Made by a program: the position numbers and the translations under genes. The notes under the pieces are model-generated. The model had not been told where the DNA came from. It saw only the letters and a list, made by a program, of their open reading frames with translations, and made no database searches. From positions 1,240,001-1,304,000 of the forward strand of contig NZ_CP101456.1 in NCBI RefSeq assembly GCF_024362485.1: DNA of 64,000 nt. Reading direction: 5' to 3'. Source of the stretch: Natronobeatus ordinarius (GTDB lineage: Archaea > Halobacteriota > Halobacteria > Halobacteriales > Natrialbaceae). Shown one piece after another: positions 21,751 through 40,555 of this stretch; position 1 is the first letter of the stretch, and every line of letters begins with the position of its first letter.

Positions 21751-22359
21751 ATGACGGCCGACGGCGACGCCGACAGCACCGATCCGATCCGCGTCGTAGC
21801 GATCTGTGGGAGCCTCCGCGAGGACAGCTACACCCGCCTGGCGCTCCGGCGCGCGCTCGAGGAAGCCGAACGTGGGGGCGTCGAGACGGAGCTACTCGAT
21901 CTTCGGGAGTGGGACCTGCCGGCGTTCGACGCCGACGTCGACCGAGCGAGCGCTGGCGACGCCGCGGAACTGGCTGCCCGGGTGCGCGAGGCCGACGCGG
22001 TCCTGCTGGGGACGCCGATGTATCACGGCTCGTTCTCCTCGCCGCTGAAGACCGCGCTCGACTACTGTGGGTTCGAGGAGTTCGAAGACAAGACGGTCGG
22101 CCTGCTCGCGGTCGCCGGCGGGGCGTTCCCGGTGACGGCGCTCGAGCACCTGCGATCGGTCTGTCGGTCGCTCAACGCGTGGGTGATCCCACACCAGGTG
22201 GCGGTGGCGAACGCCCGCCGTGCCGTCGACGACGGCGAGTTCGTCGACGAGTCACTCGAGAACCGGGTGGCGACGCTCGGCCGGCGGGCGGTCCAGTACG
22301 CACGAATCGAACCCGACCCGGACTCCTTCGAGAGCGATCAGAACGTCGGCGCGCGGTAG
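21751..22359 (+). CDS. NADPH-dependent FMN reductase family protein
   Basis: A 202-residue flavodoxin-fold protein. The FMN phosphate loop is VVAICGSLREDSYTRLALR, the conserved LLGTPMYHGSFSSPLKTALDY follows near residue 88, and GLLAVAGGAFPVTALEHLR is the third flavin-contact block. Family members reduce FMN, quinones or chromate with NAD(P)H. It lies 40 nt downstream of mutY on the same strand; a role in oxidative-stress handling is plausible but is context only. Confidence 0.9.
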   Translation: MTADGDADSTDPIRVVAICGSLREDSYTRLALRRALEEAERGGVETELLDLREWDLPAFDADVDRASAGDAAELAARVREADAVLLGTPMYHGSFSSPLKTALDYCGFEEFEDKTVGLLAVAGGAFPVTALEHLRSVCRSLNAWVIPHQVAVANARRAVDDGEFVDESLENRVATLGRRAVQYARIEPDPDSFESDQNVGAR

Positions 22360-22364
22360 AGTGA

Positions 22365-22394
22365 CAACTGAAACGGGTTACACACTACGAGCAG
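22365..22394 (+). repeat. 30-bp dispersed repeat, copy 1
   Basis: Starts CAACTGAAACGGGTTACACA and ends GAGCAG. It matches copies at 34266-34295 and 37180-37209 with only one to three differences each. It begins 6 nt after the FMN reductase stop. Immediately downstream CACTGACGTTCAGTG (22400-22414) is a further inverted repeat, followed by GCTACTATAG, which resembles the right flank of copy 3. Confidence 0.85.
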
Positions 22395-22473
22395 GTGTGC
22401 ACTGACGTTCAGTGGCTACTATAGCTCGGTGACGGGCGTCGCGGAGATCGGCCACGACGCGGCCGAGGGCGTG

Positions 22474-32760: not shown

Positions 32761-33400
32761 CGGCGACACCCGAATCATCGTGATCGACAACTACGACTCG
32801 TTCGCGTACAACCTCGTCCAGTACGTGGGCGAGGTCGCCGACGAGGTGCTCGTCCGGCGAAACGACGCGCTCTCCATCTCTGACGTACACGACCTCGACC
32901 CCACGGGGATCGTCGTCTCGCCGGGGCCGGGGACACCCCAGGAGGCAGGCATCTCGATCCCCCTCTTCGAGGAGACCGACTACCCGATCCTCGGGGTCTG
33001 TCTCGGCCACCAGGCGCTGTGTGCCGCCAACGGCGCGCCCGTGGTTCACGCCCCGGAGGTCGTCCACGGCAAGCCCTCCGTCGTCGACCACGACGGCGAG
33101 GGGCTCTTCGCGGGCCTCCCCGACCGTTTCCAGGTCGGGCGCTATCACTCCCTGGCCGTCGAACGCGACGACCTGCCCGAGAGCTTGCTCGAGACGGCGA
33201 CGACGGCCGACGAACGCGAGGTCCTGATGGCCGTCCGCCACCGCGAGAAACCCCACCTCGGTGTCCAGTTTCACCCCGAGAGCATCCTGACCCGCGAGTC
33301 GGGCGCCGGGGAGGACGGTGGTGCGATCTCGCTCGCGGTGGGCAAACGCATGATCCGAAACTTCTGTGCGCTGGCGGCCGCACACGCAGACGACCGATGA
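32753..33400 (+). CDS. pabA: Aminodeoxychorismate/anthranilate synthase glutamine amidotransferase component
   Basis: A 215-residue class I glutaminase subunit that supplies ammonia to the synthase. The nucleophile is Cys83 in GVCLGHQAL and the His174/Glu176 pair lies in [27 protein letters not shown] is the conserved N-terminal strand. The start ATG at 32753 overlaps the upstream gene by 8 nt; the next gene overlaps by 4 nt. This tight spacing implies a coordinated three-gene unit. Confidence 0.88.
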
Positions 33401-34272
33401 GCGAGTTGCAGTACCACGTCGACGGCGACCTCGTCCCCGCCTCGGCGGCGACGGTCTCGGTCGACGACCGCGGCTTTCGCTACGGCGACGGCGCGTTCGA
33501 GACCCTGCGGGCCTACGGCGGGACGATCTTCGAGTGGGACGCCCACGCCGAGCGACTCGAGCGAACCTGCGAGCATCTCCATCTCGAGCACGGCTGCTCG
33601 CGGGCGGACCTCCGGGCCCGAATGGACGAGACGCTGGCGGCGAACGACCTCGTGGACGCCTACGTCCGGCTCTCGATCACCCGCGGCGTCCAGCCGGGCA
33701 AACTCACGCCACAGCCCGAGGTCGATCCAACCGTCGTCGTCTACGTGAAGCCGCTCCCGCGTGGTGGGCTCGAGGGCGAGTCGGTCTGGGACGGCCCGGC
33801 GACGGTCGAGACGGTCGAGACGCGCCGGATTCCCGACGCGGCGCTCCCGGCCGCGGCGAAGACGCACAACTACCTCAACGGCATCCTCGCGCGAACGGAA
33901 CTCTCGCCCGACGCCGACGAGGCGCTGCTCTGTGACCTCGAGGGGCGCGTCGCCGAGGGGGCGACCAGCAACCTCTGTTTCGTCGTCGACGGCGAGTTAC
34001 ACACCCCGACGCTCGAGGGGCCGGTGCTGCCGGGGATCACGCGCCGGGTAGTGCTCGAACTCGCAGCCGACGCGGACATTTCGACGCACGAGGGCTGGTA
34101 CGAACCGGCCGACGTTCGCACGGCCGACGAGGCGTTCCTCACGAACACGACGTGGGAACTTCGTCCCGTCGCGTCGATCGACGGGCACGCGATCGGCGGC
34201 GGTCCGGTGACGTCGCTGCTGGCAGAACGGTTCGACGAACGGGTCGAAGCCGAGAGCTACAGTAACAACTGA
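33397..34272 (+). CDS. pabC: Class IV aminotransferase-fold protein, probable aminodeoxychorismate lyase
   Basis: A 291-residue PLP enzyme of fold type IV. The cofactor lysine is Lys155 in AAAKTHNYLNGI. It begins ELQYHVDGDLVPASAATVSV with the YGDGAFETLRAY block typical of the D-amino-acid/branched-chain/ADC-lyase family. As the third gene after pabB and pabA it most likely cleaves aminodeoxychorismate to p-aminobenzoate and pyruvate for folate. A branched-chain or D-amino-acid aminotransferase would be the alternative. Its stop codon lies inside copy 2 of the dispersed repeat. Confidence 0.85.
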   Translation: MSELQYHVDGDLVPASAATVSVDDRGFRYGDGAFETLRAYGGTIFEWDAHAERLERTCEHLHLEHGCSRADLRARMDETLAANDLVDAYVRLSITRGVQPGKLTPQPEVDPTVVVYVKPLPRGGLEGESVWDGPATVETVETRRIPDAALPAAAKTHNYLNGILARTELSPDADEALLCDLEGRVAEGATSNLCFVVDGELHTPTLEGPVLPGITRRVVLELAADADISTHEGWYEPADVRTADEAFLTNTTWELRPVASIDGHAIGGGPVTSLLAERFDERVEAESYSNN

Positions 34273-34314
34273 AACGGGGTACACACTGCGAGCAGCGTCT
34301 CTCCGTCTCAGTTG
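34266..34314. repeat. Dispersed repeat copy 2, forming a stem shared by two convergent gene ends
   Basis: The 30-bp core is 34266-34295. CAACTGAAACGG at its left end pairs with CCGTCTCAGTTG (34303-34314), 11 of 12 bases, giving a stem with a loop of about 25 bases. The stop codon of pabC (plus strand) and of the convergent hypothetical gene (minus strand) both lie in the arms as AACTGA. A role as bidirectional terminator or mRNA end protection is plausible. Confidence 0.8.
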
Positions 34315-36884: not shown

Positions 36885-37351
36885 CGCGCTCGGGATCGGT
36901 TCGACCACGTCCGTGGGGACGCTGAGGACGTTCGGTGGTCACGACGGCCGTGACCTGCGTGTCTCGTCCGGAACTGACGCCACCTGCAACGATCCCCCTG
37001 AAACCGTTGCGTTCCAACCCCCCACTGCATCGGCTCCCGTTACATCCACCACGTCCGTCCCCCATTCGATACTTCGTAGCCCGACTAATAGCGATTTTGA
37101 GCAATCCGTTACTGTTGAGGCGCCGTCATTTCGGACGCAGCGTCGCTACCGTGCTCGACTGGCCGCCAGTCTGTAGTCTCAACTGAAACGGGTTACACAC
37201 TGCTCGCAGTAGAACGGACAGCCTCGGTAACGAGGCCGAGGCTGGCCGCTCGGCTGTGACCGGGTGTAATTCGTTTCAACGAGTACTATACGCTGGGAGT
37301 CGTGTCCGTCGGACCGATTCCTCTTTACTACCGGAGTGAATCACGGTACGT
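36885..37351. other. 467-base intergenic region holding dispersed repeat copy 3
   Basis: No supported gene. The left part (36885-37175) is AT-richer than its surroundings without recognisable structure. From 37180 to about 37280 lies the dispersed repeat element. CTTTACTA at 37323-37330, about 25 nt before the ileS ATG, is a probable TATA box. Confidence 0.6.
37180..37278. repeat. Dispersed repeat copy 3 within a ~100-bp element with inverted ends
   Basis: The 30-bp core is 37180-37209. TGAAACGGGTTACACAC (37184-37200) has an inverted partner at 37262-37278, which reads TGAAACGAATTACACCC on the minus strand (14 of 17 identical). Between them CAGCCTCGG / CCGAGGCTG (37220-37245) forms a 9-bp stem. 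The whole resembles a small non-autonomous mobile element or a structured RNA gene. Confidence 0.7.
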
Positions 37352-40300
37352 ATGAGCAGGTTCGACGAGGTCGACGACCAGTACGACCCGCACGCGCTCG
37401 AGGCGGCGGTTTTCGAGTACTGGGAGGACGTCGACGCCTACGAGCGGACCGTACAGCATCGGGCGGACGCCGAGCCGTACTTCTTCGTCGACGGCCCGCC
37501 GTACACCTCCGGGGCGGCCCACCTGGGAACGACCTGGAACAAGACGCTCAAGGACGTCTACATCCGGTATCTCCGAATGCAGGGGTACGACGTCACCGAT
37601 CGGCCGGGCTACGACATGCACGGGCTGCCCATCGAGACGAAAGTCGAGGAAGAACTCGGCTTCGAGAACAAAAAGGACATCGAGGACTTCGGCGAGGACG
37701 CGTTCATCGCAGCCTGCAAGGAGTTCGCCGAGGAGAACCTCGAGGCCATGCAGGAGGATTTCAAGTCCTTCGGCGTCTGGATGGACTGGGACGACCCCTA
37801 CAGGACGCTGGATCCGGAGTACATGGAGGCCGCCTGGTGGGGCTTTGCCAAGGCGGCCGACCGCGGCCTCGTCGAGCAGGGCAAGCGGTCGATCTCGTGG
37901 TGTCCCCGGTGTGAGACCGGGCTGGCGAACAACGAGGTCGAGTACGAGGACGTCGAGGACCCCTCGGTTTACGTCAAATTCGACCTCACAGAGCGCGAGG
38001 GATCGATCGTCATCTGGACGACCACGCCGTGGACGATCCCGGCGAACACGTTCGTCGCCGTCGATCCCGAGGGCGAGTACGTCGGCGTCCGTGCGGAGAA
38101 AAACGGCGAAGAGGAACTGCTCTACGTCTCCGAGGCCAAACACGAGGAGGTCCTCAAGGAAGGACGCTACGAGGAGTACGAGGTCGTCGAAGAACTTACT
38201 GGCGAGGACCTCATCGGCTGGTCCTACGAGCACCCACTCGCCGAGCAGGTCCCCGACCACGTCGACGGCGAGGGCACCCTCGAGGTCTACGCCGGCGACT
38301 ACGTCGACACCCACGGCGACGGCACCGGGCTGGTCCACTCCGCACCCGGCCACGGTGAGGAGGACTTCGAGCGCGGTCAGGAGCTCGGTTTCGAGGCGTT
38401 CTGTCCCGTCGGCGACGACGGCACCTACACCGAGGCCGGTGGCAAGTACGCCGGTCAGTTCGTCAAGGACGCAGACGAGGAGATCATCGCCGACCTCGAG
38501 GACGAGGGTGCGATGCTCGCCTCCGTGACCACTACCCACAGCTACGGCCACTGCTGGCGCTGTGACACGGGCATTATCCAGGTCGTCACCGACCAGTGGT
38601 TCATCACGATCACGGACGTCAAAGACGAACTCCTCGAGAACATCGAGGACAGCGAGTGGTATCCCGACTGGGCGCGTGACAGCCGCTTCCGGGATTTCGT
38701 CGAGGACGCTCCCGACTGGAACGTCTCCCGGCAGCGCTACTGGGGCATCCCGATCCCGATCTGGATTCCTGAAAGCTGGACCGGCGACATGGACGACGTG
38801 ATCGTCGTCGGCACGCGAGAAGAGCTCGCCGAGCGCGTCGACCAGGAGATTGACCCCGAGACGGTCGACATCCACAAGGACACCGTCGACGGGCTGACGA
38901 TCACCGAGGACGGGACGACCTACAGCCGCATCCCCGACGTCTTCGACGTCTGGCTCGACTCTTCGGTCGCCTCCTGGGGCACGCTCAACTACCCCGAAGA
39001 CGACAGCCGCTTCGACGAGCTCTGGCCCGCCGACTTCATCCTCGAAGCTCACGACCAGACTCGCGGCTGGTTCTGGTCCCAGCTGGGGATGGGCACCGCT
39101 GCGATGGGCGAGGTCCCCTACGACAAGGTGCTCATGCACGGCCACGCACTGGACGAGGACGGTCGGAAGATGTCCAAGTCGGTCGGCAACGTCGTCGAAC
39201 CCGGCGAGGCCATTTCCCGCCACGGCGCCGACGCCATGCGCATGTTCCTGCTCGCTGCGAACCCACAGGGCGACGACATGCGCTTCTCGTGGGACGGCAT
39301 GCGGACGATGGAGAACCACCTCCGGACGCTGTGGAACGTCTTCCGCTTCCCGCTGCCGTACATGGACCTCGACGGCTTCGACCCCGCCGAGGCGGACCTC
39401 GAGGCGGTGGATGACCACCTCGAACTCGTCGACGAGTGGGTGCTCGCTCGCCTGCAGTCGACGAAGGTTGAGATGACCGAGGCGATGGATGAATTCCGCC
39501 AGGACAAAGCGCTCGAGGCCCTCCTCGACTTCCTCGTCGAGGACGTCTCGCGCTTTTACGTCCAGGCGGTTCGCGAACGCATGTGGGAGGAGAGCGACAG
39601 CCCGAGCAAACGGGCCACCTACACGACGATGGCCCACGTCCTGCGCGAGGTCGTCGTCCTGCTCGCACCCTTTGCGCCCTTCGTCAGCGAGGAGATCTAC
39701 GGCACGCTCACCGGCGAGTCACGCCATCCGACGGTCCACATGGAAGACTGGCCCGCTGTCGAATCGTACTGGGAAGACGAGGAACTCGAGGTAGACGTCT
39801 CGTTCCTGCGCGCCATCGAGGAAGCCGGCGCGAACGCCCGCCAGCAGGCCGGGCGAAAGCTGCGCTGGCCCGTCCCGCGGGTGGTCGTCGCCGCCGACGA
39901 CGAACGCGTCGTCGACGCCGTGTCCCGCCACGAGGCGCTCCTGAAAGACCGCCTCAACGCCCGCGAGGTCGAACTCGTCTCCCCCGACCAGCAGTGGGGC
40001 GAACTCGCCTACAGCGCCGAAGCCGACATGAGCAAACTCGGCCCCGCATTCGGTGGGCGCGCCGGCGAGGTCATGACCGCGCTCAACGAGACCCGGATCG
40101 AAGAGCCGACCCTCGAGTCGCTCGAGGCGGCCGTAAACGACGCGCTCGCCGAGCCGGTCGAACTCGAGGCGGAGATGGTCTCGTTCGTCACCGAGACGCC
40201 CGACAGCGTCGCCGGCACCGCCTTCGGCCTGAACGGCGACGACCGCGGCGTCGTCTACGTCGACGCCTCGCTCACCGACGACATCGAGAGCGAGGGCTAC

Positions 40301-40555
40301 GCCCGAGAGGTCATCCGCCGCGTCCAGGAGATGCGCAAAGAGCTCGACTTAGACGTCGAAGAGCGGATCGCACTCGAGCTCGAGGTCGACGACGACCGGA
40401 TCGCCGAGCTGGTCGCCGAGCGCGAGGACCTGATCCGCGAGGAAGTGCGTGCCGACGAGCTCGGGACCGTCGAGGACGGCCACCGCAAGGAGTGGGACGT
40501 CGAAGGCATCGACGTCGAACTCGCCATCTCGCCGCTGGCCGAGTCGACGGCCTGA
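37352..40555 (+). CDS. ileS: Isoleucyl-tRNA synthetase
   Basis: A 1067-residue class I synthetase charging tRNA-Ile. The HIGH-like site is HLGT (57-60) and the KMSKS loop is exactly KMSKS (606-610, DGRKMSKSVGN). The editing domain is present between them (VIWTTTPWTIPANTF). WCPRCE in SWCPRCETGL and the C-terminal anticodon-binding region are those of the archaeal/eukaryotic IleRS clade. A TATA-like box lies about 25 nt upstream of the ATG, so the mRNA is probably leaderless. Confidence 0.97.
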   Translation: MSRFDEVDDQYDPHALEAAVFEYWEDVDAYERTVQHRADAEPYFFVDGPPYTSGAAHLGTTWNKTLKDVYIRYLRMQGYDVTDRPGYDMHGLPIETKVEEELGFENKKDIEDFGEDAFIAACKEFAEENLEAMQEDFKSFGVWMDWDDPYRTLDPEYMEAAWWGFAKAADRGLVEQGKRSISWCPRCETGLANNEVEYEDVEDPSVYVKFDLTEREGSIVIWTTTPWTIPANTFVAVDPEGEYVGVRAEKNGEEELLYVSEAKHEEVLKEGRYEEYEVVEELTGEDLIGWSYEHPLAEQVPDHVDGEGTLEVYAGDYVDTHGDGTGLVHSAPGHGEEDFERGQELGFEAFCPVGDDGTYTEAGGKYAGQFVKDADEEIIADLEDEGAMLASVTTTHSYGHCWRCDTGIIQVVTDQWFITITDVKDELLENIEDSEWYPDWARDSRFRDFVEDAPDWNVSRQRYWGIPIPIWIPESWTGDMDDVIVVGTREELAERVDQEIDPETVDIHKDTVDGLTITEDGTTYSRIPDVFDVWLDSSVASWGTLNYPEDDSRFDELWPADFILEAHDQTRGWFWSQLGMGTAAMGEVPYDKVLMHGHALDEDGRKMSKSVGNVVEPGEAISRHGADAMRMFLLAANPQGDDMRFSWDGMRTMENHLRTLWNVFRFPLPYMDLDGFDPAEADLEAVDDHLELVDEWVLARLQSTKVEMTEAMDEFRQDKALEALLDFLVEDVSRFYVQAVRERMWEESDSPSKRATYTTMAHVLREVVVLLAPFAPFVSEEIYGTLTGESRHPTVHMEDWPAVESYWEDEELEVDVSFLRAIEEAGANARQQAGRKLRWPVPRVVVAADDERVVDAVSRHEALLKDRLNAREVELVSPDQQWGELAYSAEADMSKLGPAFGGRAGEVMTALNETRIEEPTLESLEAAVNDALAEPVELEAEMVSFVTETPDSVAGTAFGLNGDDRGVVYVDASLTDDIESEGYAREVIRRVQEMRKELDLDVEERIALELEVDDDRIAELVAEREDLIREEVRADELGTVEDGHRKEWDVEGIDVELAISPLAESTA

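Follow-up and report, generated by a model that had tools for sequence, protein, structure and literature searches.

A dispersed palindromic repeat of Natronobeatus ordinarius belongs to a haloarchaeal family of miniature inverted-repeat elements very probably mobilised by an IS630-group transposase

The window analysed here is a stretch of 64,000 nucleotides (C1 1240001-1304000) of the 4.2-Mb genome of Natronobeatus ordinarius. A sequence-only reading of it had pointed to three copies of a 30-bp repeat, all in the same orientation and in gene-free or gene-end positions, and both the copies (22365-22394, 34266-34295 and 37180-37209, with few bases differing between them) and their siting are borne out. 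Copy 1 (22357-22423, plus strand) is a 67-bp, internally deleted element of subfamily A that has kept both ends and lost its central stem; it matches the covariance model of the family described below at 45.7 bits, and the TAG stop (22357-22359) of a gene predicted by the codon model (21751-22359, plus strand) lies within its end. Copy 2 (34258-34295, plus strand) is truncated to the left arm of subfamily A, recognised by a 21-mer match with one mismatch and, even with filters off, too weak to be called by the covariance model (E 0.11). The TGA stop (34270-34272) of a second gene called by the codon model (33397-34272, plus strand) falls within this arm. Copy 3 (37172-37290, plus strand) is full-length and intergenic. 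It ends 61 bp before a 1067-aa gene (37352-40555, plus strand; open reading frame and gene call) whose product, judging from its N-terminal motif, we take to resemble a class I aminoacyl-tRNA synthetase, and an effect of the repeat on the promoter of this gene is possible.

The 30-bp repeat forms one of the arms of an imperfect palindrome, which is dispersed in this genome and usually measures 122 bp there. In copy 3, the palindrome comprises 119 bp including the two flanking TA positions (core 37174-37288) and scores 70.9 bits. It had been described as an inverted-ended element of about 100 bp at 37180-37278; the inverted ends are there, but this extent is too short. The left arm (37172-37209, plus strand) is of subfamily A and contains the 30-bp repeat. 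The inverted partner and the 9-bp stem noticed earlier are present, the latter (37219-37227 with 37236-37244) forming a central hairpin at 37219-37244 (plus strand), as seen in the sequence and in the DNA fold. According to arm typing, the second arm (37246-37290, minus strand, ending in TACTATA) is an inverted left arm of subfamily B, making copy 3 a mosaic (L_A + L_B). In comparison, 82 of 87 genome copies combine a left-type and a right-type arm of one subfamily; as for the other four odd copies, one pairs two B left arms, and in the remaining three one arm or both scored weakly. The segment 37215-37290 (76 bp) is 97% identical to another copy of the genome (G000:C1:1611782-1611857), and the mosaic probably arose via the central palindrome, by recombination or template switching. 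DNA folding of copy 3 departs strongly from that of shuffled sequences (z = -6.75), and copy 1, with its central stem lost, does not stand out (z = -0.87).

The genome-wide search that the sequence-only reading had proposed revealed many more copies. The 21-bp core, with up to three mismatches, has 30 matches, against none for the reversed control, and a search with the repeat region yielded 72 matches, most of which share the same boundaries. The end pattern TATAGTANNCNNTGAAA occurs 187 times with up to two mismatches, versus 12 for its reversed control. A covariance model built from 40 copies returned 141 matches at no fewer than 87 distinct places, with a length of exactly 122 bp in 53 cases; these counts are a lower bound, with 150 of 6495 candidates scored. 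Each copy reads TA-[TAGTA...TACTA]-TA, and the aligned copies run over about 122 bp from TATAGTA to TACTATA. They fall into two subfamilies, A (CAACTGAAACGGTTTACACACTGCTCGC...) and B (CTCGTTGAAACGATTTACACCCGGTCACAG...). The A2 alignment leaves out the mosaic window copy, L079 (which has the same element sequence as L078) and L090. With lengths of 67-140 bp that leave no room for a transposase, TATAGTA/TACTATA ends and at least 87 places in the genome, and with a core that is not confined to one annotated insertion sequence, the repeats have the features of miniature inverted-repeat transposable elements (MITEs), one of the two readings first offered for them.

Some copies depart from this plan. 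In subfamily B, the central 16-20 bases form a loop that can point either way with respect to the arms: CCTCGT or a similar loop is read in most of the 41 typed copies and its reverse complement in about eight, counted by eye, possibly as a result of inversion through the palindrome. A 28-bp remnant at L246:1501-1528 (G000:C1:1157162) consists of the two ends fused. Tandem or nested copies with a single TATA at their junction occur at L002, L024, L046, L168 and L257/L260, and the single-TATA junctions include that of an IS630 element lying within another IS630 gene.

A comparison of related genomes defines the mobile unit. In Natrinema mahii, a filled site reads GGGAATA[TATAGTAGCC...GGCTACTATA]GAATTC, with 84 bp between the outer brackets (L163), and the empty site of a congener, whose flanks are 88% identical, reads GGGAATATAGAATTC (L194). 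The net difference is 82 bp, namely the 80-bp core TAGTA...TACTA and a duplicated TA. This one clean empty site shows that the core inserts with duplication of TA, the target-site duplication that the sequence-only reading had suggested looking for. A second element of the same locus (L163:3496-3579) sits inside a multi-copy insertion sequence and is absent from the homologues of that sequence found in other genomes of this genus. In the homologue of this site and in that of the pair L181/L179, TG or CG stands at the expected position of the TA; these two further pairs are therefore compatible with a TA target without being proof of one. The tandem pair of L168 differs from L142 by a net 80 bp, with TATA in common and no extra TA, and one TA may have been lost later. 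Beyond the TA itself, the flanks follow a C-TA-G preference, which is found for 17 of the 44 MITEs with TATA at both ends in this genome and for 59 of 84 in relatives, against a background of 17 CTAG among the 966 NTAN sites of the window.

The family is widespread among haloarchaea. Of 125 genomes of the taxonomic family to which the organism belongs together with Natrinema, 48 contain the 122-bp form, and an 84-bp form with the same ends is found in Natrinema. Within the order, 94 of the 392 genomes, and 26 of the 95 genera, contain a longer end pattern (up to two mismatches), and none contains the reversed pattern. An exact-pattern scan of species genomes returned 70 stretches, all labelled haloarchaeal. 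The 84-bp form also matches 54 plasmid records, including records of Haloarcula hispanica, Halomicrobium, Halostella and Natrialba magadii, and the 122-bp B consensus matches a single plasmid record, weakly. As for carriage by viruses, we rejected it, having found no match in phages and no viral-contig stretch with the exact pattern. Two Natrinema species contain near-identical copies that differ in their flanks, an indication of recent activity. In N. thermotolerans, 18 copies have distinct flanks and 13 of these are at least 97.6% identical to another copy, and amplification must therefore have been recent, though the draft shows no transposase.

The search for a transposase whose element carries matching terminal repeats, also proposed at the outset, led to a resident insertion sequence. 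The genome has nine matches to DDE_3 (PF13358). A 1059-bp IS is present in five copies that are 99.8-100% identical to each other and in one at 87%. It contains two overlapping ORFs that score 112.6 and 140.8 bits against the NCBIfam IS630 model (cut-off 100) and also match the Pfam domains HTH_33 and DDE_3. As the second ORF is in another frame, a programmed frameshift is likely. Annotated relatives include ISNma7 and ISNpe3, the names being those given in annotated plasmids. Over 13 bases, the left end of the IS, TATAGTAACCGTT, coincides exactly with the right end of subfamily B. We compared the ends of 37 IS rows from many genera with those of 79 MITE copies by position-wise similarity and column permutations, pairing left ends with left ends and right ends with right ends. 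L294 and IS copies with truncated or decayed ends were left out, and one or more IS copies are represented by two rows (L273 and L319 denote a single place). Over positions 3-17, the summed similarity is 19.83 for a permuted mean of 8.40, and none of 50,000 permutations reached that value. Over positions 18-30 it is 13.67 for a permuted mean of 6.96, with seven of 50,000 permutations as high. In this subterminal region, the best pairing is right with right (8.39), and the MITE left box is closer to the right end of the IS (6.98) than to its left end (5.28); therefore, a left-to-left correspondence of the subterminal boxes is not established. Positions 14-15 also differ, with TGAAA in the MITE and TAGAA in the IS. 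Among the IS copies with both flanks readable, 23 of 27 by an eye count have C and G, and the MITE and the IS thus have a common target choice, which is independent of the terminal sequence. The genome harbours a second kind of IS630 transposase of 347 aa, encoded by a single ORF (L260:808-1851; also in L259). We discarded this type II IS630, to which no ends could be assigned, as the partner. The TATAGTACTCGTT that lies in L259 several hundred bp before the ORF is better explained as a remnant of a MITE. A long autonomous element with full MITE ends was likewise sought, and no such pair was present in the eight end-pattern loci examined or among the end-pattern positions listed, which is why we prefer the IS630 element that shares the ends only.

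Taken together, these observations make it very likely that the repeats are a MITE family mobilised by an IS630-group transposase. The MITE would be a short, gene-less and imperfectly palindromic element with a mobile core, TAGTA...TACTA, of about 80 bp in Natrinema and about 118 bp here. A transposase of the IS630 (Tc1/mariner) group would act in trans, recognising the terminal repeat of about 17 bp and two different subterminal boxes, and would insert the element at TA, preferably at C-TA-G, with duplication of the TA. What speaks against this model is that the presence of the IS and that of the MITE are not associated across 96 genomes of the family, 39 of which have both, 29 the MITE only, 14 the IS only and 14 neither (Fisher p = 0.65). 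No match to the IS protein was obtained in nine genomes that have 20 or more end matches. In the MITE-rich genomes G066 and G076, no match to DDE_3 was found, and one of these two has near-identical MITE copies; G076 is a draft of about 70 contigs, from which IS copies may be missing.

MITE-rich genomes without a detectable IS630 element might be better accommodated if the repeats belonged with the small mobile repeats (SMRs) of Haloquadratum and moved by a mechanism other than IS630. SMRs resemble them in length, copy number and terminal repeats; however, the available parts of PMC3119063 describe SMRs without target duplication and with terminal repeats unrelated to transposons, whereas duplication and a related transposon are both found here, and we hold this origin to be very improbable. 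The long palindrome, the intergenic places and the tandem copies sharing TATA also bring to mind REP-like palindromes moved by a single-strand transposase of the IS200/IS605 or RAYT type. Nevertheless, IS605-type elements have neither terminal inverted repeats nor target duplication, as far as PMC3119063 could be consulted, and the TA duplication at the clean empty site and the inverted terminal repeats common to the MITE and an IS630 element make single-strand transposition extremely unlikely.

The hairpin raises the question of a role beyond mobility. In 38 distinct rows, 97.8% of the cells are paired and 15 pairs are changed on both sides (125 cells), against 2-10 cells in slid controls. 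Some of these both-side changes distinguish subfamily A from subfamily B and were passed on to many copies, but columns 47/76 vary between CG, GC and UA within subfamily B too. The hairpin is thus kept by compensatory changes, and selection on the folded strand or correction between the palindrome arms could both explain it. Gene context was determined for 87 copies with a gene finder trained on the window (86% coding). None lies wholly inside a predicted gene; 37 are between tandem, 25 between convergent and 18 between divergent genes, and seven have no neighbour in the stretch. Similarly, of the 40 plasmid matches listed, seven are in unannotated records and 31 of the 33 others are outside annotated genes.

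The other reading offered from the sequence alone was a family of structured regulatory RNAs. In its strongest form, the repeats would be such RNAs or transcript-end elements, i.e. terminators or stability hairpins, that are kept by selection and whose mobility is only past. The preserved pairing with its both-side changes and the location of all copies outside or at the ends of genes, a good share of them between convergent ones, speak for it. Nevertheless, in tandem contexts the orientation is unbiased (17 same, 20 opposite), copies also occur between divergent genes, insertions are polymorphic between species and near-identical copies exist, and the ends are common to the MITE and an IS; moreover, the pairing could also be maintained by conversion or template correction between the palindrome arms. 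In the four loci scanned, each with a copy, none of the Rfam families attained its gathering score (best 28.6 bits versus 95). The RNA reading is thus unneeded, and we consider it improbable, even if the compensatory changes that it draws attention to are real. We also rejected a structured RNA with a preferred strand. Among 79 oriented 84-bp copies, after 21 of 100 with a non-positive orientation score had been left out, G-U pairs exceed A-C pairs (138 versus 53), but few columns carry most of them, and folding energy favours neither strand clearly (32 versus 47 copies), in line with the unbiased gene orientation. It is tempting to speculate that an IS630-mobilised element might also act as a folded single strand, as RNA in transcript ends or as an extruded DNA cruciform used in movement, the hairpin itself being under selection and its pairing kept while subfamilies and cores diversified across haloarchaeal families; we regard this as rather unlikely.

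We conclude that the repeats are a real MITE family of wide distribution, ordinary in kind, and that there is good evidence that its mobiliser is of the IS630 group. The analysis gives this haloarchaeal repeat a boundary, a rule for its target and a probable mobiliser, and a transposition test can therefore be designed. Its copies also supply gene ends: in 12 of the 87, an adjacent predicted gene has its stop codon within the element, in most cases 15 bases inside.

An IS630-related MITE of haloarchaea was not found in the literature searched, including the accessible parts of PMC3119063, PMC12306157, PMC4866403, PMC3402447, PMC10969869 and PMC2759123, a search that lay outside most subscription journals and ISfinder. 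Among known systems, the resident IS, a homologue of ISNma7 and ISNpe3, has like the MITE a TATAGTA... terminal repeat and TA at its ends, the C-TA-G preference and subterminal boxes in register, the correspondence of the left boxes not being established; unlike the MITE, it is 1059 bp long, has transposase ORFs and lacks a long palindrome. The SMRs of Haloquadratum walsbyi are also haloarchaeal, transposase-free and short (about 80-110 bp, up to 54 copies), with terminal inverted repeats, but they are reported, in the parts of PMC3119063 at hand, without target duplication and without a related transposon. As for the ERIC or RU-1 elements of enterobacteria, they have bacterial hosts and a different sequence; their consensus begins with TATACCC, and a comparison by eye only with the consensus of PMC2759123 revealed no likeness to the MITE beyond TATA. 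No mobilising IS is named for them in the portions of PMC2759123 and PMC10969869 that we could consult. According to the same portions, they are intergenic elements of about 127 bp with a stable stem-loop, TA ends and TA duplication, present in dozens to hundreds of copies and sometimes fused to gene ends. The haloarchaeal MITE resembles them in size, intergenic location, stem-loop, TA ends and duplication, copy number and gene-end fusions, and can be viewed as an archaeal counterpart of the bacterial ERIC elements.
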